Shown: positions 55,962-64,000 of the stretch, one piece after another
Layout: every line of letters begins with the position of its first letter
Position numbering within the stretch: the first letter of the stretch is position 1
NCBI RefSeq assembly: GCF_014204715.1
Contig: NZ_JACHLY010000002.1
Coordinates: 62,001 to 126,000, forward strand
Direction: 5' to 3'
Source: Streptomonospora salina
GTDB taxonomy: Bacteria; Actinomycetota; Actinomycetes; Streptosporangiales; Streptosporangiaceae
Length of the DNA: 64,000 nucleotides
The notes under the pieces: model-generated
Told to the model about the DNA's origin: nothing
Database searches by the model: none
Seen by the model: the letters and a program-made list of their open reading frames with translations, nothing else
Position numbers and translations under genes: made by a program

Positions 55962-56426
55962 TCAGGGCGCCGGCGGAGCGCCGCCCGCATCCGCGCCGCG
56001 GGGACCGGCCCGCCAGCCGCGGCACAGCAGGTAGGCGGCCAGGGTCACGGCGGCCAGGACGCTGTCGGCGGTGGCGGCGGCGCCCGCCCCGGCGACCCCG
56101 TCCGGACCGAGCGCTCCGGCGGCGAACGCGGCAGCGGTCACCGCCAGCAGGGCTTTGTTGGCGATCACGATCTCCCAGACCCACCGGTAGCGCAGCGGGC
56201 GCCACGCCAGCAGGGCGAACAGTGCGGCGAAGACGCCGAAGCCGTAAAAGCGCCAGGTCTCGGCCATCACCCGGTCGGGCCCCGCGTCCAGCACGGTCGG
56301 CAGTCCCGCCGCCGCTGCCGCCAGGGCGCTCGCGCTCGCCAGCGCCATCAGCACGCGCGCCGCGGCCACCCCCCGATTCGAGGGCGCGGACGCGGCCGGA
56401 GGACGTGAATGCTTTTCATTTTCCAT
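55962..56426 (-). CDS. Small integral membrane protein
   Basis: A 154-residue protein with four hydrophobic segments (about 23-42, 62-78, 85-105, 115-135) and a polar start (MENEKHSRPP). No family recognised; it resembles DoxX-like or other 4-TM proteins in size only. ATG 56426. It faces away from the SARP gene and shares a 320-bp AT-richer divergent region with it, so it may mark the left edge of the biosynthetic cluster. Confidence 0.65.
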   Translation of the reverse strand: MENEKHSRPPAASAPSNRGVAAARVLMALASASALAAAAAGLPTVLDAGPDRVMAETWRFYGFGVFAALFALLAWRPLRYRWVWEIVIANKALLAVTAAAFAAGALGPDGVAGAGAAATADSVLAAVTLAAYLLCRGWRAGPRGADAGGAPPAP

Positions 56427-56746
56427 TCGCTCTCCCTGAAACTCTCGGCTGAGTTCATGTCAGCACCGGACCACACTGGACGAAGCCTCGAACGCCCGTT
56501 TTTCCAGAACCTTGTTCGGGTTTGTCTTGGGGCCGTCCGAATAATATCCTCAAGTTGAGCAATACCTCCTCACGCTTCGTGTCAGTGCAACTCTGTTCCG
56601 CACACAAAGCTACCGGACAAGGGTTTCGCCATTCCGCAATATAGATTTAACTTCCGCTTCACGAGATCATTCCGGGTCGTCCGCAGTGGAAACTTCGCGC
56701 GGGCGCTACTGAGCACAGGAAGCCACAATCCCGACGGGAGCGCTTA
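56427..56746. promoter_or_regulatory. 320-bp divergent region left of the biosynthetic cluster
   Basis: AT-richer than its surroundings, no gene seen. CTCAAGTTGAG (56549-56559) is a palindrome around one G and a possible operator for the SARP promoter. GGGAG before 56747 is the SARP ribosome site. Confidence 0.5.
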
Positions 56747-57493
56747 GTGCGGTTCAAGATACTGGGGAACGTTCAGGTCGAGGCGGACGGACGAACATAC
56801 ACTCCCTCGGCCGCCAAGATCAAGACGCTGCTGGCGACGCTTCTCTCCCGGCCGGGAAGAGCGGTGAGCACCGACCAACTCGTCACCGAACTGTGGGGGG
56901 AAGACCCACCCAAAAGCGCACACGCCTCTCTCTACGTCTACGTATCCCAACTGCGGAAGGAATTGTCGCGGCTGTCGGGGTCGGACATTCCCCTGGAGAC
57001 CCGGCACCCCGGCTACCTGCTGAAGACCGACCACCAGAGCATTGATTTCCACGAGTTCCTGCGGATGCACCGGTCCGGCACCGCCGACTTCGAGGGCGGA
57101 AACTACAGCGAGGCCCTTCGAACGTTCGACGCCGCACTGGCCGCCTGGCGCGAAGAGGCCTTCTCAGACGCACCGCGCGGCCCCATCCTCTGCGGAATGG
57201 AGAACCGGATCCGCGAGACGCGCCTGTCGCTGATCGAACTCCGCAACGAGGCGGAGATACGACTGGGACGCTACAGCAAGATCATCGGCGAGCTCCGCGC
57301 CCTGTCCGAAGAGCACCCTTTCCACGAGACGTTCCAGTACCAGCTCATGGTCGCGCTGTACAAGGCCGAGCGCCAAGTCGAGGCACTGGACGTATACCAT
57401 CGCACACAATCGTTGCTGCGGGATGAATTGGGGCTGGACCCCGGGCAGCTTCTGCAGAGCATGCAGAAGACGATCCTTTCCGGGGAGCGGTAG
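56747..57493 (+). CDS. SARP-family transcriptional activator
   Basis: A 248-residue pathway-specific activator. Residues 1-95 are the OmpR-like winged HTH (RPGRAVSTDQLVTELWGEDP, ASLYVYVSQLRKEL, HPGYLL); residues 100-245 are the BTAD domain (FEGGNYSEALRTFDAALAAW, ELRALSEEHPFHETFQYQLM, DELGLDPGQ). Small SARPs of this type switch on antibiotic clusters by recruiting RNA polymerase to heptamer repeats. GTG 56747 follows GGGAG. First gene of the cluster, likely activating the downstream genes. Confidence 0.94.
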   Translation: MRFKILGNVQVEADGRTYTPSAAKIKTLLATLLSRPGRAVSTDQLVTELWGEDPPKSAHASLYVYVSQLRKELSRLSGSDIPLETRHPGYLLKTDHQSIDFHEFLRMHRSGTADFEGGNYSEALRTFDAALAAWREEAFSDAPRGPILCGMENRIRETRLSLIELRNEAEIRLGRYSKIIGELRALSEEHPFHETFQYQLMVALYKAERQVEALDVYHRTQSLLRDELGLDPGQLLQSMQKTILSGER

Positions 57494-57655
57494 CGGGTCC
57501 CGGAACACGGAAACGGCGCCGGCCGCGGTCGGTATACGCGGCGGCCGGGCCGCAAGGTCGCCCCAAGGCGGGCACCAGGATCGGGCCAAGGAGGTCGCAA
57601 GGCGCCCTTCCTAGCATCGGGTACCAGATATTCGCTGCGAAGGGGCCCGATCCGT

Positions 57656-58888
57656 ATGACGATGACGGTGTCGACTCAGGTGTGCGTGGTGGGAGGAGGT
57701 CCGGGTGGGCTTTCGCTCGCCCTGCTGCTCGCGCGCAGCGGAATAAGCGTGGTCGCCGTCGAGCAGAGCGGGCACTTCAACCGTTCGTTCCGCGGCGAGA
57801 CGATCTCACCGGATTGCGGATACCTGCTGCGTGAGATGGGGGTGCTCGAAGCGGCGCGGGAACGCGGATACCTGCAGGTGCGCCGCATGGAGATCGACGA
57901 CGGCGGGCGCCGAGTCCTCAATGTCGACTTCGGCGACTTCGACTATCCCCAGCGCTATCCGCTGGAGATCCCCCAGCACAATCTGCTGGAGACGATGCTC
58001 GGCGAGGCACACCAATACGCGTCCTTCACGTTCTTGCCGCGTACGCGGGTGAACGACCTGCGGTACAGCGGCGACCGTGTCAGCGGCGTCCGCGCCACCG
58101 GTCCCGATTCCGAGGTGGAGGTGGACGCGACGCTGACCGTGGCCGCCGACGGGCGCTACAGCAGGCTGCGCACCATGGCCGGCCTCGACTGCACGACGAC
58201 TCCCCAACAACGCGACGTGGTCTGGCTGAAGACCCCCGTCCCCGACGAGTGGGAGCACAGTACCTACCGGATCCGGTTGCGCGACGACCGCAACGGCGTG
58301 TTCCTGCCGACGTATCCGGACAAGGTCCGGGTCGGCTTCAACATTCCCAAGGGCGGGTTGAAGAAGATCCGCCGCGGCGGGATCGGCGAGCTGCACGAAC
58401 GGCTCGACGAGCTCGCACCCGAGCTGAACCCGATCGTGCGCTCCGAAATCACCTCGTGGTCGGCAACCAGCGTGCTGGACATCTTCACCACCGTCGTGCC
58501 CAGGTGGCAGCGCCCCGGGTTCGCTGTCGTCGGCGACGCGGCGCACACCTTCTCACCGATCCTCGGCCAGGGGGTCAACCACGCGATCGTCGACGCGGTC
58601 GACCTCGCCCCCCGGCTCGCCTCCGCCCTCCGCGAATCCGACGCCCCGCAGGCGGCGGACCGCGCCGCGGAGGCCTTCCAGCGGAGCCGCGAATCCGAGG
58701 TGCGCACCACCCGCTCACTCCAACTGCGCCAAGAGAAGGCGTTCACGCTGGGCAATCCCGCCGCGGTGCTGCTGCGGCAGCGCGTGTACCGCACGGCCGA
58801 ACGCGTAACCGCCCTGCGCAACGCCGTCTTCCGCCGGATCTACTTCCGCATCCAGCGCCAGAACACGCACCGATCCGTCCACGCCTGA
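57656..58888 (+). CDS. FAD-dependent monooxygenase/oxidoreductase (PHBH fold)
   Basis: A 410-residue class A flavoprotein. GxGxxG motif GGGPGGLSLALLLARSG at about residues 13-29; SFRGETISPD near 44; DG fingerprint VAADGRYSR near 163; GD motif VGDAAHTFSPILGQGVNHA near 290. No halogenase WxWxI motif. It could hydroxylate or epoxidise the polyketide, or act as a flavoprotein cyclase as PyrE3 does in pyrroindomycin; the last is speculative. ATG 57656. P450 follows after 13 bp, probably co-transcribed. Confidence 0.88.
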   Translation: MTMTVSTQVCVVGGGPGGLSLALLLARSGISVVAVEQSGHFNRSFRGETISPDCGYLLREMGVLEAARERGYLQVRRMEIDDGGRRVLNVDFGDFDYPQRYPLEIPQHNLLETMLGEAHQYASFTFLPRTRVNDLRYSGDRVSGVRATGPDSEVEVDATLTVAADGRYSRLRTMAGLDCTTTPQQRDVVWLKTPVPDEWEHSTYRIRLRDDRNGVFLPTYPDKVRVGFNIPKGGLKKIRRGGIGELHERLDELAPELNPIVRSEITSWSATSVLDIFTTVVPRWQRPGFAVVGDAAHTFSPILGQGVNHAIVDAVDLAPRLASALRESDAPQAADRAAEAFQRSRESEVRTTRSLQLRQEKAFTLGNPAAVLLRQRVYRTAERVTALRNAVFRRIYFRIQRQNTHRSVHA

Positions 58889-58901
58889 TCCGGAGGGCTC
58901 C

Positions 58902-60098
58902 ATGGAACACGAGCACAAGCGCCATCCCTACCCGTTCACGCGGTACTCGGTCACCGAGATCCCGCCGCTCTACCGGCACCTGCGCGAGAACGAGCCGGTG
59001 GCCCGCGTGGACTTCCCCAGCGGGGACGAGGGCTGGGTGGTCAGCCGGTTCGACGACGCCTACGCCCTGCTAGCCGACCAGCGGTTCAGCCGCGCCGCCA
59101 CCGCCGACCCCGACGCGCCGCGGCTGACCTCGGCCCGGCCGGTCAGCGGCGGACTGTTCACCATGGATCCCCCCGAGCACACCCGCCTGCGCCGACTGGT
59201 GGCCAAGGAATTCACCGCCCGGCGCATCAACGGGCTGCGCCCCCGTATCCAACGCATCACCGACGAGCTGCTGGACGGGATGGAGCGGGGAGGTCGACCC
59301 GCCGATCTGATCCGTGCGCTGGCGTTCCCCCTGCCGGTTCGGGTCATCTGCGAACTCCTGGGCGTTCCCTTCTCCGACCACGACAAGTTCCAGGCGTGGT
59401 CGGAAGGGATCGTCTCGCTCACGTCCCATACCGAGGACGAGGCGCTGCACGACATGGCCAGCCTGGCCGGCTACTTCCAGGAGCTGATCGCGGCAAAGCG
59501 CACCGACGGAACCGGCGATGACCTGCTCAGCGCGCTGGTACGCGCCGAGGAGGAGGAGCGGCTCTCCGAACACGAGCTGATGATGATGGGGATGACTCTG
59601 CTGGTCGCCGGGCACGAGACGACGGCCACCGTCATCGGCAGCGGCGCTTTGAGCCTGCTGCGGCACCCCGAGGCCCTGCGGACGCTGCAGGAATCCCCCG
59701 AGCGCATCGACGACATCGTCGAGGAGATCCTGCGGGTCAATCCGATCGGCGACGGCGGGCCGCTGCGGGTGACTCTGGAGGAGGTCGAGATCGCCGGAAC
59801 CGTGATCCCCGAGAATGCGGCCGTGGTGGCTTCGGTCCCCGGGGCCAACCACGACCACCGCCACTTCGACTCGCCCCACACCTTCGACATCGACCGCGCC
59901 GACAAGCAGCACATGGCCTTCGGCCACGGCGTGCACTACTGCATCGGCGCCGCGCTGGCACGAGCCGAGTTGCAGATCTCGCTGAGTACCTTGTTCCGCC
60001 GCTTTCCCAACCTGGCTCTGGACGCCGAAGCGGAGGACCTGGAGATGACCAGCGGGATGATGGTGCACAGCCTGCGGGAACTTCCGGTCACCTGGTGA
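58902..60098 (+). CDS. Cytochrome P450
   Basis: A 398-residue soluble bacterial P450. I-helix oxygen motif LLVAGHETTA near 235, ExxR in EEILR near 276, heme-binding FGHGVHYCIGAALAR near 345 with the Cys thiolate. No ferredoxin gene adjoins it, so electrons come from elsewhere. A tailoring hydroxylase or epoxidase of the pathway, acting after or alongside the FAD enzyme 13 bp upstream. ATG 58902 follows GGAGGG. Confidence 0.95.
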   Translation: MEHEHKRHPYPFTRYSVTEIPPLYRHLRENEPVARVDFPSGDEGWVVSRFDDAYALLADQRFSRAATADPDAPRLTSARPVSGGLFTMDPPEHTRLRRLVAKEFTARRINGLRPRIQRITDELLDGMERGGRPADLIRALAFPLPVRVICELLGVPFSDHDKFQAWSEGIVSLTSHTEDEALHDMASLAGYFQELIAAKRTDGTGDDLLSALVRAEEEERLSEHELMMMGMTLLVAGHETTATVIGSGALSLLRHPEALRTLQESPERIDDIVEEILRVNPIGDGGPLRVTLEEVEIAGTVIPENAAVVASVPGANHDHRHFDSPHTFDIDRADKQHMAFGHGVHYCIGAALARAELQISLSTLFRRFPNLALDAEAEDLEMTSGMMVHSLRELPVTW

Positions 60099-60142
60099 CC
60101 GCGTTCCGCGGCGCCCCCACTCCGGGGCGCCGCGGAACGCGG
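60099..60142. terminator. Bidirectional terminator between P450 and thioesterase
   Basis: 19-bp perfect stem (60099-60117 with 60124-60142) and 6-nt loop between two convergent stop codons, starting 1 bp after the P450 stop. Confidence 0.92.
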
Positions 60143-60144
60143 TT

Positions 60145-60936
60145 TCAGGAGCGCGAACGCGCCCGGGCGACCACCGCCGACAGCGCGGCGAGCAGCTCCC
60201 GGGGCGCACCGGTCGGGAAGAAGTGGCCGCCGTCGAGCATGCGCAGGGAGAAGGGGCCGGCGGTACAGCGCCTCCACTCCGACAGGGCCTCGCCGGTCAC
60301 GAGTACGTCGTCGCGCCCGCCGAATACGTGCACGGGGATGTCCAGGGCCGCGGCGTCGTCGGGACGGTGGGTCGCGCACACGCGCAGGTCGGCGCGTAGC
60401 ACCTCCAGCAAAGCGCTCAGCAGCGACCGGTGGGCGAGCAGCTCGGCGGGGATGCCGCCCGCGCCGGCGAGCAGGTCGGTCAGCGCCGCGTCGTCGGCGC
60501 CCGCCCAGGTGCCGATGCCGCCCGGCGCGGTCGGCGCCGGGTAGCAGGCCGCCGCCAGTCCCAGAGCCGGACGGGCACCGCGGTGCAGGCGGCGCAGCGC
60601 GAGCCGGTAGGCCACCAGAGCCCCCATGCTGTGCCCGAAAAGCAGGTGCGGCTCGGAAAGCGCCGTGTCCAGCTCGCGGTCGATGTCGGTGACCAGGGCG
60701 TCGATGTCGGTGAAGGGCCGCTCGCTGCGCCTGCTCTCCCGTCCCGGCAACTGGACGGGCCAGACGCCGACGTCGGGGCCGAAGGCGCCGCGCCATGAGC
60801 GAAACCCCGAAGCGCCGCCGCCGGCGTGGTGGAAGCAGATCACCCGGAGCCCGTCGCCGCGGGCGTCGCGCCCGAGATAGGCGCCAGTGCGCGGGGCCGC
60901 GGCGGCCGGCGCGGTGTCGGCGGGGGCCGGTCTCAT
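60145..60936 (-). CDS. Type II thioesterase
   Basis: A 263-residue alpha/beta hydrolase of the GrsT/TEII class. FHHAGGGASGFRSW near residue 36-49 is the diagnostic oxyanion region, GHSMGALVAYRLA near 103-115 the nucleophile elbow, and Asp/His occur in FGGRDDVLV and DGGHFFPTG. It clears wrong acyl groups from stalled PKS carrier proteins. ATG overlaps the hydrolase stop (ATGA), so it ends a leftward coupled operon. Same job as AbyT in abyssomicin. Confidence 0.93.
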   Translation of the reverse strand: MRPAPADTAPAAAAPRTGAYLGRDARGDGLRVICFHHAGGGASGFRSWRGAFGPDVGVWPVQLPGRESRRSERPFTDIDALVTDIDRELDTALSEPHLLFGHSMGALVAYRLALRRLHRGARPALGLAAACYPAPTAPGGIGTWAGADDAALTDLLAGAGGIPAELLAHRSLLSALLEVLRADLRVCATHRPDDAAALDIPVHVFGGRDDVLVTGEALSEWRRCTAGPFSLRMLDGGHFFPTGAPRELLAALSAVVARARSRS

Positions 60937-62066
60937 CGTCCCGTCCCCCCGTTCCAGCGCGTGTGCGGAGTGCCGCGGCGTACGGGCAGGCCCGACAGGG
61001 TGTGCAGGATCGCGGCCCGCCCCCGCGCTCCGCGCAGGGCCAGCAGTGATCCGAACATCCACGTGCGGGTGCGGGCTACGGAGTTCGGGGAGCCGTGGAC
61101 GTCGTCGCTGCTGACGACGCGCCGACGGGGTGCGTACCGGTGGACGAGATCGACGTCGGAGCGCGGGATGATCTCGTCGCGCAGGCTTTCCAGATAGTGC
61201 ACGGGCAGGTCGGTGCGCGCGAGCTGGTCGGGGTCCAGCGCCATGGGCGCCAGGCGGGCGGGGAGGTCTCCGCCGCCGCAGAGGTGGCCGAGGGTCCGGG
61301 TGGTGATCTCGGGCAGGGTGCGCCAGTGGTCGGGGTCGGCGAACGGGGCCCGCACGGGCGCGCCGACGGTGACCAGACCGCGCACGCGGTCGTCGAAACG
61401 GGCGCAGCGCAGCGCGAGGTGGCCGCCGAAGCTCATGCCGACGACATGGGCGCCGCGCACGCTCATGCGCTCTGCGGCGGCGTCGAGGACGGCGGTGAGC
61501 ACGGATTCGCTGCCGGGACCGTAGTCCAGAGGGTTCTCTCCGACACCGGGCATCTCCACCGCGGCCACCGCGTAGCCCAAGCGTCGCGCCGCCGGGATGA
61601 ACTGGCCCCACTGCTCCTTGATACTGACGATCCCGCCGAGGACGACGACGAGGGGGCGCCGGCCGGACAGGCCGCCGGTCCAGCAAGCGAAGCTGCGGCC
61701 GGCGTGGGTGATCTCCAGGCGTTCGATGCCCTGGCGCGTGCGCCAGTCGTCGAAGGAGGAGACGCACTCGGCAAGGGCGTGGGCGCGCTGGGGCCCGTCG
61801 ACGTAGGGGAATCGGGCCATGCCGAATCGGCGGCAGGCGCCCAGCGGGTCGCCGCGCCGTCGCAGCGCGCGTGCGCGATCGCTCCAGGACGCCACCCAGT
61901 CGGATTCGGTGGTGGCCCGGGCCCAGACGCGGCGACACTCCCGACGGGAGATGCCCTGGGCTCGGGCGTGCAGCAGGGCGAAGTCCCGCAGTTGGGCCAC
62001 GCGCGGGTCGGGTGCGGGCGCCTCAGCCGGGTCGGCACCCGCAGAGTCGGTTTCATACCAGGTCAC
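60933..62066 (-). CDS. Alpha/beta hydrolase, Agg5/AbyA5-like (predicted acetate-eliminating)
   Basis: A 377-residue FrsA/DUF1100-like hydrolase. VVVLGGIVSIKEQWGQF near 139-155 is the oxyanion loop, HVVGMSFGGHLAL near 205 the nucleophile elbow, RDEIIPRSDVDLVHRY near 299 the acid, and HGSPNS region near 330 the His. In agglomerin, Agg5 removes acetate from the acetylated tetronate to give the exocyclic double bond; the position between TEII and the E2-type acyltransferase fits that. GTG 62066 overlaps the acyltransferase stop by 14 bp. Confidence 0.82.
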   Translation of the reverse strand: MTWYETDSAGADPAEAPAPDPRVAQLRDFALLHARAQGISRRECRRVWARATTESDWVASWSDRARALRRRGDPLGACRRFGMARFPYVDGPQRAHALAECVSSFDDWRTRQGIERLEITHAGRSFACWTGGLSGRRPLVVVLGGIVSIKEQWGQFIPAARRLGYAVAAVEMPGVGENPLDYGPGSESVLTAVLDAAAERMSVRGAHVVGMSFGGHLALRCARFDDRVRGLVTVGAPVRAPFADPDHWRTLPEITTRTLGHLCGGGDLPARLAPMALDPDQLARTDLPVHYLESLRDEIIPRSDVDLVHRYAPRRRVVSSDDVHGSPNSVARTRTWMFGSLLALRGARGRAAILHTLSGLPVRRGTPHTRWNGGTGR

Positions 62067-62823
62067 GACAGTCCTCCAGAGTGTGTGTGATATCGGCGAG
62101 GACGTCGGCGGCTACCGCTCCGTCGATCACGCGGTGGTCGAAGGTGAGGCTCAGGCGCATGGTCGGCACGATCGCCACGGCGCCGTCCTCGGCGCGCGGC
62201 AGGTCGCGGACGCGTCCCACACCCAGGGTCACCGCGGTGCCGCCGTAGGAGTGGAACCCGTCGACCGGGCGGTGGCCCAGGCTGGAGACGGCGAGTGTGC
62301 CCATGAAGCGGGGCCGGGCTCGTAGCCGGGACAGCGCCAGGCGGAAACCGAGCGCGCCGAGGGCGAAGGGCGCGCGCATGAGCGCGCGCGCTGCCCCGGC
62401 TTCGGGCAGGTCGGCGGCGTCGGTGTCGCGCAACCGGTCCACGGTCCGCTGAAGTTCGGGCAGCCGTTGGCTACCGACGTCGCGGACGGGGGCGGTGATC
62501 ACCACGCGGGTGCCGTCCAGGCGTTTGTCCAGGGCGAGCTTGACGTCGACGGTGGGGTAGCGGGCGACGCGGGGGCGCAGCCGCCCGACGACGGCGGCGT
62601 TGGCCTCGGGGTGGCGCGCCAGGGCGCGTGCTCCGGCGAGCATGACGTAGCTGACCACGGAGGTCCGGACCGGAGCTCTGTCGCGGTGGTCCAGCACGGC
62701 GCGCATGTCGACCTCGGTGTCGATGTGGACGGGGCAGGCCTGGCGGGCGAACGACAGGAAGTGCAGGGTATGGCGCCGCTGCGGGTCGAGGGGCCCCACG
62801 CGGGCCCGGGCGGGAAGCGCCAT
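62053..62823 (-). CDS. Stand-alone 2-oxoacid dehydrogenase-type acyltransferase, Agg4/AbyA4-like
   Basis: A 256-residue protein with only the catalytic domain of dihydrolipoyl acyltransferases: no lipoyl or peripheral-subunit binding domain. The active-site motif is FDHRVIDGA near residue 227-235 with His and Asp intact. In tetronate pathways this enzyme acetylates the hydroxymethyl group of the new tetronate ring, preparing elimination. ATG 62823 lies 1 bp after the ACP stop; its own stop overlaps the hydrolase start. Confidence 0.87.
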   Translation of the reverse strand: MALPARARVGPLDPQRRHTLHFLSFARQACPVHIDTEVDMRAVLDHRDRAPVRTSVVSYVMLAGARALARHPEANAAVVGRLRPRVARYPTVDVKLALDKRLDGTRVVITAPVRDVGSQRLPELQRTVDRLRDTDAADLPEAGAARALMRAPFALGALGFRLALSRLRARPRFMGTLAVSSLGHRPVDGFHSYGGTAVTLGVGRVRDLPRAEDGAVAIVPTMRLSLTFDHRVIDGAVAADVLADITHTLEDCRDLV

Positions 62824-62824
62824 C

Positions 62825-63064
62825 TCAGGCGGCGCGGCCGTCGCCGGCCGCCAGGTCGAAGAAGTCGGCGAGGGTGCGGGCCTGCAGGGCAGCGGAGACG
62901 TCGAGCGCCCGGCCGGTCTCGCGCTCCACCGCGGCGATGAGCCGTACCAGGTGGACCGAGTCCCAGCCGTCGAGGCGGTCGAACTCGACGTCGAGGTGCT
63001 CTGGCGCCAGGGCGAGCGCCAGTTCGGTGTCGATGAGCCGGAGCAGATCGTCGCGGGAGTTCAC
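62825..63064 (-). CDS. Acyl carrier protein (glyceryl-ACP type, Agg3/AbyA3-like)
   Basis: A 79-residue ACP. GWDSVHLVRLIAAVE near residues 38-52 carries the phosphopantetheine Ser (DSVH instead of the usual DSL). GTG 63064 overlaps the FkbH stop, so both are coupled. In tetronate pathways it receives a glyceryl unit from the FkbH protein and offers it to a KAS III-like ligase. Confidence 0.9.
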   Translation of the reverse strand: MNSRDDLLRLIDTELALALAPEHLDVEFDRLDGWDSVHLVRLIAAVERETGRALDVSAALQARTLADFFDLAAGDGRAA

Positions 63065-64000
63065 GGTGCTGTGCCTTTCGCGAGGGACATGGTCAGCCGG
63101 ATGTGGTCGGGGTGGTCCGGCAGGGGATCCGGGGCGCCGCCGTCGGTTCCGCGCAGGCGGTGCAGGAAGGTCCGGGTGGCGGGAGCGCCGTCGGCGCTGT
63201 CCGGGGCGGCGAGGTCCTCCCGGGCGGTGAAGCCGTGGTCGGTGTAGAAAGACGCGAAGCGCCCGTTGCGGCCGCTGGGTCGGTAGCGTCCGGCGACCTC
63301 GGCGCATCCGTGTTCGCGGGCGTGAACGAGCAGATGCCGCAGGCATGCCGTTTCGATGCCGCGGTCGAACACCCGGCAGCTCAGCAGCATGTTGTCGACG
63401 GTGAGGCGTTCGCCCTCGACGCGGGCGAAGACGGCGCCGACCACACCGTGCTCGCCGAAGCGGTCGCGGGAGCGCACGGCCGCGACCAGTTGGGCGGGAT
63501 CGGCGATGCGGTCGCGGACTTCGGCGTCGCCGAGCCGCTCGGTGGTGAGGTTGAACTGGTTGGTGCGCTGGGTGAGCTGGGCCAGGCGCGGCACCGCTTC
63601 GTCGGCGGGGCGCACCAACTCGACCTGGACGCCGAGGTGGCGCAGGTAGTCGTCGGTGGATCCGGTCGACCGGCGCAGCTCCGCGCGGCGGGATTCGCTG
63701 CGGTAGCGTTCCCGGCGCGCTCGGTCGTCGTCGGTCGTCTCCAGAGTGCGGAACCAGGCTCCTTCCAGGAGCCGCCGCGGGTGCGTCGCCGGGTCGCCGC
63801 CGACGTCCACCACCTCGACGTCGGGTAGCAGGTCGCGCATCGCGCCGATCTCGGTGGCGGTGTCGTCGACGAACACGAAGGCGTCGCGGCCCAGGCCCAG
63901 CACGCGGGCGATCTCGGTGACGTTTTCGGGCTTGGGGCGGCGGTTGGCTGCTACGGCCACGAAGTCTTCGCGCCGCAGCACCATCTCGGGGTGCTCGGCC
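63061..64000 (-). CDS. FkbH-like glyceryltransferase/phosphatase (partial, runs off right edge)
   Basis: At least 312 C-terminal residues of a HAD-like FkbH protein. EHPEMVLRREDF, KPENVTEIARVLGLGRDAFVFVDD (split here by the rule: the second Asp pair VFVDD is the HAD motif) and ELAQLTQRTNQFNLTT-like LAQLTQRTNQFNLTT are typical. The C-terminal part is a GNAT-like domain (SCRVFDRGIETACLRHLL, YRPSGRNGRFASFY). FkbH loads 1,3-bisphosphoglycerate onto an ACP with loss of phosphate to form glyceryl-ACP. The N-terminal catalytic HAD part with DxDxT lies outside the window. Confidence 0.9.
   Translation of the reverse strand, partial: AEHPEMVLRREDFVAVAANRRPKPENVTEIARVLGLGRDAFVFVDDTATEIGAMRDLLPDVEVVDVGGDPATHPRRLLEGAWFRTLETTDDDRARRERYRSESRRAELRRSTGSTDDYLRHLGVQVELVRPADEAVPRLAQLTQRTNQFNLTTERLGDAEVRDRIADPAQLVAAVRSRDRFGEHGVVGAVFARVEGERLTVDNMLLSCRVFDRGIETACLRHLLVHAREHGCAEVAGRYRPSGRNGRFASFYTDHGFTAREDLAAPDSADGAPATRTFLHRLRGTDGGAPDPLPDHPDHIRLTMSLAKGTAP

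Follow-up and report, generated by a model that had tools for sequence, protein, structure and literature searches.

A tetronate biosynthetic cluster of Streptomonospora salina and its predicted fatty acid-primed, one-module pathway

The right edge of the analysed stretch of Streptomonospora salina DNA (the window, 64,000 nucleotides, G000:C2:62001-126000, on contig C2 of 510,128 bases in a genome of 5.6 Mb) raises the question of which product is made by a leftward operon whose first gene, encoding an FkbH-like protein, is cut by that edge. The first-pass annotation of the window had proposed a tetronate or spirotetronate. Judged by its sequence, the cluster is a tetronate biosynthetic cluster, as indicated by an AbyA5-like hydrolase, a KASIII-like ligase and the grouping of FkbH; the spirotetronate half of that proposal was not upheld, given a single KS-AT-ACP module and the lack of a PF18678 protein. 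The cluster probably joins a fatty acid with a three-carbon unit of sugar origin, forming a small ring-shaped antibiotic-like molecule, and the product is predicted to be a 3-acyl-5-methylenetetronate with a fatty acid-derived, probably 2-enoyl, side chain. A fatty acid-primed pathway to such a small tetronate is, as an explanation of the whole locus, held with good confidence. The guess at a spirotetronate is thereby replaced by a compact pathway on one 20.7-kb block with predicted product class and side chain, and the predicted 3-(alk-2-enoyl)-5-methylenetetronate would have two alkenes of electrophilic character.

Regarding the tetronate assignment, a PDB search with the alpha/beta hydrolase retrieved AbyA5 (4ywf) at an E value of 8.5e-70, the next protein other than AbyA5 following at 1.7e-9. 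The KASIII-like ligase, foreseen in the first-pass annotation as a neighbor of FkbH, adjoins that gene and belongs to the tetronate clade; its best PDB match is 5by7 (2.4e-93), and both have LPPQLSG where the ordinary KASIII 4ryb has PHQAN. The PQ of this motif is invariant in the 27 tetronate-clade KASIII proteins aligned (27/27). The same position reads Pro-Pro-Gln in these 27 proteins (Thr-Pro-Gln in one), ordinary KASIII having PHQ with the catalytic His there, and the Cys and Asn are retained in all 27. KASIII matches at E<=1e-20 were detected in 60 of 394 genomes of the class and fall into two classes of 46-55% and 30-36% identity. The exomethylene pair, an E2-type acyltransferase and an AbyA5/Agg5-type eliminase, is also present. 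In a tree of 79 FkbH sequences (the first set was confined to those aligning over at least ~480 residues, and the fetched window copy L124 was swapped for the full protein), the window FkbH falls into a group of 56 with a support of 0.90, comprising the window, 48 KASIII-adjacent proteins and seven without KASIII in the fetched stretch. The tree was rooted on three FkbH proteins that have a 3HCDH_N match no more than ~3 kb away, such neighbors being the sole ground for labeling three of 12 fetched FkbH loci as methoxymalonyl-type; these three fall outside the group of 56, as does one KASIII-adjacent FkbH (L145).

PMC4979870, PMC5819245 and PMC7489565 describe, for homologs of these enzymes, how glyceryl-ACP is formed and ligated to give a 5-hydroxymethyl tetronate, which is then acetylated and undergoes elimination to yield the exocyclic methylene. 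FkbH and the second acyl carrier protein (ACP) would likewise supply glyceryl-ACP, the KASIII-like ligase would join both chains into a 5-hydroxymethyl tetronate (chemistry known for the RkE/RkD homologs), and the E2-type acyltransferase and AbyA5-like hydrolase would acetylate this intermediate and eliminate acetate, leaving the exocyclic methylene (known for Agg4/Agg5). The acyl chain would come from genes beyond the edge: a fatty acyl-AMP ligase (FAAL), as its family suggests, would activate a free fatty acid and load it onto a discrete ACP, two acyl-CoA dehydrogenases (ACAD1 and ACAD2) would together introduce one 2,3-double bond, and a polyketide synthase (PKS) of a single KS-AT-ACP module without ketoreductase would extend the chain by one malonyl unit, yielding a 3-oxo-acyl thioester. 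The three domains of this PKS were detected and no reductive domain was recognized in the domain scan; its presumed single use and malonyl choice follow from the motifs TACSSS, EGHGTGT, GHSIGEYA, HAFH, and DSI, which by motif rules we take to mark an active, malonyl-choosing module. The P450 and FAD enzyme, rightly counted as part of the cluster in the first-pass annotation since they lie in the same accessory block, may tailor the product, perhaps together with a PAPS-type sulfotransferase bearing a GTGRCGST loop, which we take to be the PAPS loop.

Relatives of the locus were collected by a pattern scan with the KASIII alignment, covering 84,980 species with one genome apiece; it yielded 290 relatives, and the best 80 of the 290 were kept. 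Among these 80, the single-module PKS lies directly upstream of KASIII in 49, of which 45 have FAAL and 34 two ACADs; these counts are probably underestimates, because contig ends and the simple gene caller lose genes. FAAL without ACAD was found in 10. The layout is exemplified by Streptomyces scabiei, Kitasatospora indigofera, Actinokineospora, and Prauserella endophytica; in P. endophytica the FAD enzyme and P450 occur as well. Among the nearest relatives of the ligase, fatty acid-primed tetronate clusters with one module are frequent. In the KASIII tree (81 tips, midpoint root, labels taken from lists, the modular label also taking in contig-truncated loci), 23 of 25 modular-labeled loci fall together with a support of 0.45, and with the FAAL-without-ACAD loci at 0.999, and the window belongs to a group of 12 (support 0.91) with 10 FAAL/ACAD-type loci and one modular-labeled locus. 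A Xenococcaceae metagenome-assembled genome (L099, 273-19790, 39% GC) has the order FAAL-ACAD-ACAD-ACP-PKS-KASIII-FkbH-ACP-E2-FAD enzyme-x-hydrolase-type II thioesterase, and this near-identical order in a cyanobacterium suggests spread across phyla. In a relative from Streptomyces scabiei, an AfsA-type gene (PF03756, 19078-20103) stands beside a large SARP-type regulator gene (L065:16249-20103), hinting at butyrolactone control, and genes of similar size are present in L050 and L060.

Tetronate chemistry as such is already known and the FAAL-ACAD-PKS-primed form is a variant of it; the split ACAD pair is its least expected part. By gene order and families, the FAAL-ACAD-ACAD-ACP loading cassette is present, but it is a variant rather than an ordinary member, because its ACAD2 lacks the beta-domain and is therefore not a full-length ACAD. 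In the window strain and in Streptomonospora alba, ACAD2 (362 aa) has lost the flavin-binding beta-domain, and ACAD1 has kept the flavin domain and catalytic acid and lost two elements that ACAD2 keeps, which we take to be the clamp on the FAD of the partner. At the level of sequence, acid and flavin domain appear in one subunit only, and the FAD-clamp elements in the other. Two ACADs were called in 37 of the 80 loci (FAAL in 48 of 80), and the table of pairs drawn from these 37 and the window comprises 38; in all 36 full-length ACAD2s, GHAG takes the place of the ACAD1 acid (36/36). An IVD/LCAD-type acid at the alternative position, in the alignment column that we presume to correspond to it, was not seen in 12 ACAD sequences. 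In a PDB search with ACAD2, the C-terminal bundle alone was well covered in the 50 matches listed. The cyanobacterial pair, a rotihibin-assigned cassette, L055, L061, L073, and L081 were read separately from these counts; in L055, L061, and L073 the first ACAD is unseen at a contig end, and in L081 (4871-6637) FAAL is followed by a single ACAD2-type protein in which both clamp elements are degenerate, ACAD1 being absent. An assembly or gene-start artefact was considered for the short ACAD2 and rejected, the identical deletion being found in S. alba, a separate genome.

These complementary losses suggest that the two ACADs are one enzyme with one active site. On this reading ACAD2, which in the window strain and S. 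alba is reduced to helical domains, would serve as the clamp on the FAD of ACAD1. In the alpha2beta2 steroid ACADs ChsE1-ChsE2 and ChsE4-ChsE5, one subunit likewise has flavin and acid and the other contacts the ADP part of FAD, an arrangement that may apply here; the pathway and substrate carrier differ, and in the present pair the beta-domain is missing entirely from one subunit. On balance, by a little more than even chances, ACAD1 and ACAD2 would form one heteromeric flavoenzyme making one 2,3-double bond. Alternatively, though this is doubtful, the Streptomonospora ACAD2 could be a decaying remnant, with ACAD1 working alone, or neither might work and the chain be saturated. In favor of this, ACAD2 has the highest dN/dS of the larger genes and 64% identity to S. 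alba, and the loss of clamp elements in ACAD1 could also mean decay of ACAD1. Decay is, however, at odds with an ACAD2 frame that is open in both species, which share the deletion, with an ACAD1 dN/dS of 0.28 and with the complementarity of the losses; the identity of ACAD2 to S. alba is moreover patchy, at 80-90% near RxLY, 83% near GAR, 70-83% at residues 61-120, and 30-63% in other blocks.

It is improbable that the ACADs act in succession, one double bond each, to give a 2,4-dienoyl chain. This would follow the account in PMC8552735, where the rotihibin pair provides a first double bond and a possibly dispensable second dehydrogenation, with ramoplanin compared. Two ACAD genes for the one double bond of rotihibin fit, however, one heteromeric enzyme, and both the GHAG of the full-length ACAD2s and the missing flavin domain of ACAD2 in the window strain speak against successive action. 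The rotihibin and ramoplanin loading cassettes have the same FAAL-ACAD-ACAD-ACP order but feed a non-ribosomal peptide synthetase, and here the cassette would feed a single PKS module and tetronate ligase, with ACAD2 truncated. A Streptomyces scabiei cassette at C1:359-365 kb (L188:2052-7687) was assigned to the rotihibin cluster rth from its gene order; one of its ACADs is 47% identical to the ACAD2 of the tetronate cluster of that species, and the acid motif, read in the rotihibin-assigned cassette, has the one-acid asymmetry of the tetronate cassettes, with FDGS in the first ACAD, GHIA in the second, and RxLYG in both. The chances are about even that the paired ACADs of such cassettes, in lipopeptide and tetronate clusters alike, would be a single heteromeric dehydrogenase acting on carrier-protein substrates through one active site, of which Streptomonospora would have an extreme form (beta subunit as FAD clamp only, alpha subunit without its own clamp), the cassette priming a one-module PKS to give 2-enoyl-5-methylenetetronates, a widespread family without a described product among the literature matches listed. 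The reciprocal ACAD losses offer a natural experiment on whether a pair of neighboring ACADs stands for two double bonds or for a single enzyme, a point left open by published annotation.

Regarding spirotetronates, the first-pass annotation named a modular PKS to the right and an AbyU/PyrI4-like spiro-cyclase as features to look for. There is just one KS-AT-ACP module, carrying the sole KS found on the 510-kb contig, and a profile search of the genome with PF18678, which we take to be the AbyU-type family, gave no match at E<=1. The control genomes are consistent with this reading of the family: of 10 genomes behind retained loci, seven match at E<=0.01, the four with tetronate loci showing neither FAAL nor a single-module PKS at 1.6e-15 to 4.2e-45 (Streptomyces abyssomicinicus among them at 1.5e-33), whereas the matches in the remaining three, whose loci are FAAL-type, are weak (7.3e-8, 2.3e-5, and 0.004); S. 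alba and two further genomes had no match at E<=0.01. According to PMC4979870 (section 14), the spirotetronate clusters listed there have vstJ homologs; the review also describes some tetronates as drawing their chain from fatty acid biosynthesis or hijacking its intermediates. A spirotetronate or other large polyketide tetronate, with its chain supplied in trans by a second PKS elsewhere in the genome, is very unlikely. In its favor, C1 has a type I PKS region with four KS matches near 5.00-5.02 Mb (G000:C1:4999312-5015128), and the P450 and FAD enzyme have counterparts in spirotetronate clusters; on the other side, the PKS region is on a different contig, unlinked to the tetronate block, the operon owns its loading and extension set, and FkbH and KASIII group with FAAL-type clusters. 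The FAD enzyme was also considered as a PyrE3-type flavin cyclase, which was rejected (PyrE3 8.1e-12, best PDB match 8uiu 1.7e-40). That FkbH serves a methoxymalonyl-ACP pathway, as the co-occurrence of FkbH, ACP, and ACAD-like proteins might suggest, is scarcely credible, since no 3-hydroxyacyl-CoA dehydrogenase or O-methyltransferase was recognized among the block genes scanned, FkbH is distant from the three with 3HCDH_N neighbors, and the AbyA5-like and KASIII neighbors contradict that role.

Of the known systems, compared by description, agglomerin (agg, Pantoea; 8,009 bp and seven ORFs according to PMC11350110) shares FkbH, ACP, the KASIII-like ligase, the Agg4-type acetyltransferase, and the Agg5-type eliminase, and is a simple 3-acyl-5-methylenetetronate like the product predicted here. 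By comparison, the present cluster adds FAAL, two ACADs, an extra ACP, and the KS-AT-ACP module, which would make the 3-oxo-acyl chain, as well as a SARP, P450, FAD enzyme, and sulfotransferase. The RK-682 cluster (rk, Streptomyces), also compared by description, shares the RkE/RkD-type glyceryl-ACP and ligase steps toward a simple acyl tetronate; RK-682 retains the 5-hydroxymethyl group, unlike the predicted product. Abyssomicin and other spirotetronate clusters have in common the AbyA1-A5 gene set and order, type II thioesterase, and SARP, but differ in their modular PKS and PF18678 cyclase, neither of which is present here. No FAAL/ACAD/single-module tetronate cluster was recognized among the matches listed from the open-licence literature on tetronates and ACADs, although one may be described elsewhere, and words starting with "tetron" are absent from a review on FAAL (PMC11837247).

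DNA similarity between the window genome and a KASIII-free congener (G397), in which ltrA and sco1 are directly adjacent, stops at ~C2:117771 and restarts at ~C2:138432, and the ~20.7 kb between these genes is therefore considered a discrete accessory block, running from a small hydrophobic gene product (window 55962) through the sulfotransferase. In S. alba YIM 90003, the nearest named relative (KASIII 87% identical), the block sits between the same neighbors; KASIII is present in two of six genomes of the genus, the window genome counted. The VTT/DedA protein and sulfotransferase (C2:136434-138214) match S. alba alone among the 80 loci (<=10 kb flank each). At the syntenic site of G397, the one cluster-free congener whose site was read, neither gene is present, and VTT had no match at E<=1e-30 in the four other congeners; the two were rejected as core flank.

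The five-gene leftward operon inside the window was confirmed as first annotated, intact, coupled, and with all motifs in the translations (FkbH VFVDD, ACP DSVH, E2-type acyltransferase FDHRVIDG, hydrolase GMSFGG, thioesterase GHSMG). FkbH and ACP overlap by 4 bp (63061-63064), ACP and E2 are separated by 1 bp, and the E2/hydrolase and hydrolase/thioesterase junctions overlap by 14 and 4 bp. The full FkbH has 659 aa and starts at C2:127040, 1,040 bases past the edge. Because its gene order is kept in S. alba and, in rearranged versions, in many of the 80 relatives, the operon is not a chance arrangement.

Table 1. Features of the accessory block, left to right (positions in the window, or on contig C2 where so marked).
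Feature	Position	Strand	Remarks
Small predicted protein of 154 aa, judged hydrophobic on inspection	55962..56426	-	inside accessory block; no Pfam match
SARP-type regulator (BTAD)	56747..57493	+	BTAD/SARP 4.6e-40; 85% to S. alba
FAD-dependent monooxygenase (PF01494), putative tailoring	57656..58888	+	FAD_binding_3 7.7e-42
Cytochrome P450, putative tailoring	58902..60098	+	P450 2.9e-35
Type II thioesterase	60145..60936	-	Thioesterase 2.9e-36
AbyA5/Agg5-like alpha/beta hydrolase, putative acetate elimination to exocyclic methylene	60933..62066	-	AbyA5 match; Abhydrolase_1 4.3e-10
Stand-alone E2-type acyltransferase, putative AbyA4/Agg4 role	62053..62823	-	2-oxoacid_dh 2.1e-21
Discrete ACP, for glyceryl unit	62825..63064	-	beside FkbH; PP-binding 2.2e-5
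FkbH-like glyceryl transferase/phosphatase, C-terminal part	63061..64000	-	FkbH domain TIGR01686 E 3.1e-85
KASIII-like protein, 344 aa	C2:127037-128071	-	adjoins FkbH
KS-AT-ACP PKS, 1000 aa	C2:128224-131226	-	KS, AT, ACP domains
ACP	C2:131223-131504	-	
ACAD2, short, 362 aa	C2:131544-132632	-	
ACAD1, 577 aa	C2:132629-134362	-	
FAAL, 587 aa	C2:134364-136127	-	
VTT/DedA-type membrane protein	C2:136434-137096	+	
Sulfotransferase	C2:137114-138214	+	start re-set to 137114

Among the 80 loci, a homolog of the small 154-aa protein was found solely in S. alba (tblastn, E<=1e-3). To the left of the block, a SNF2-type helicase gene is followed by a SWIM zinc-finger gene (window:44314-48224), and both are conserved in S. 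alba.

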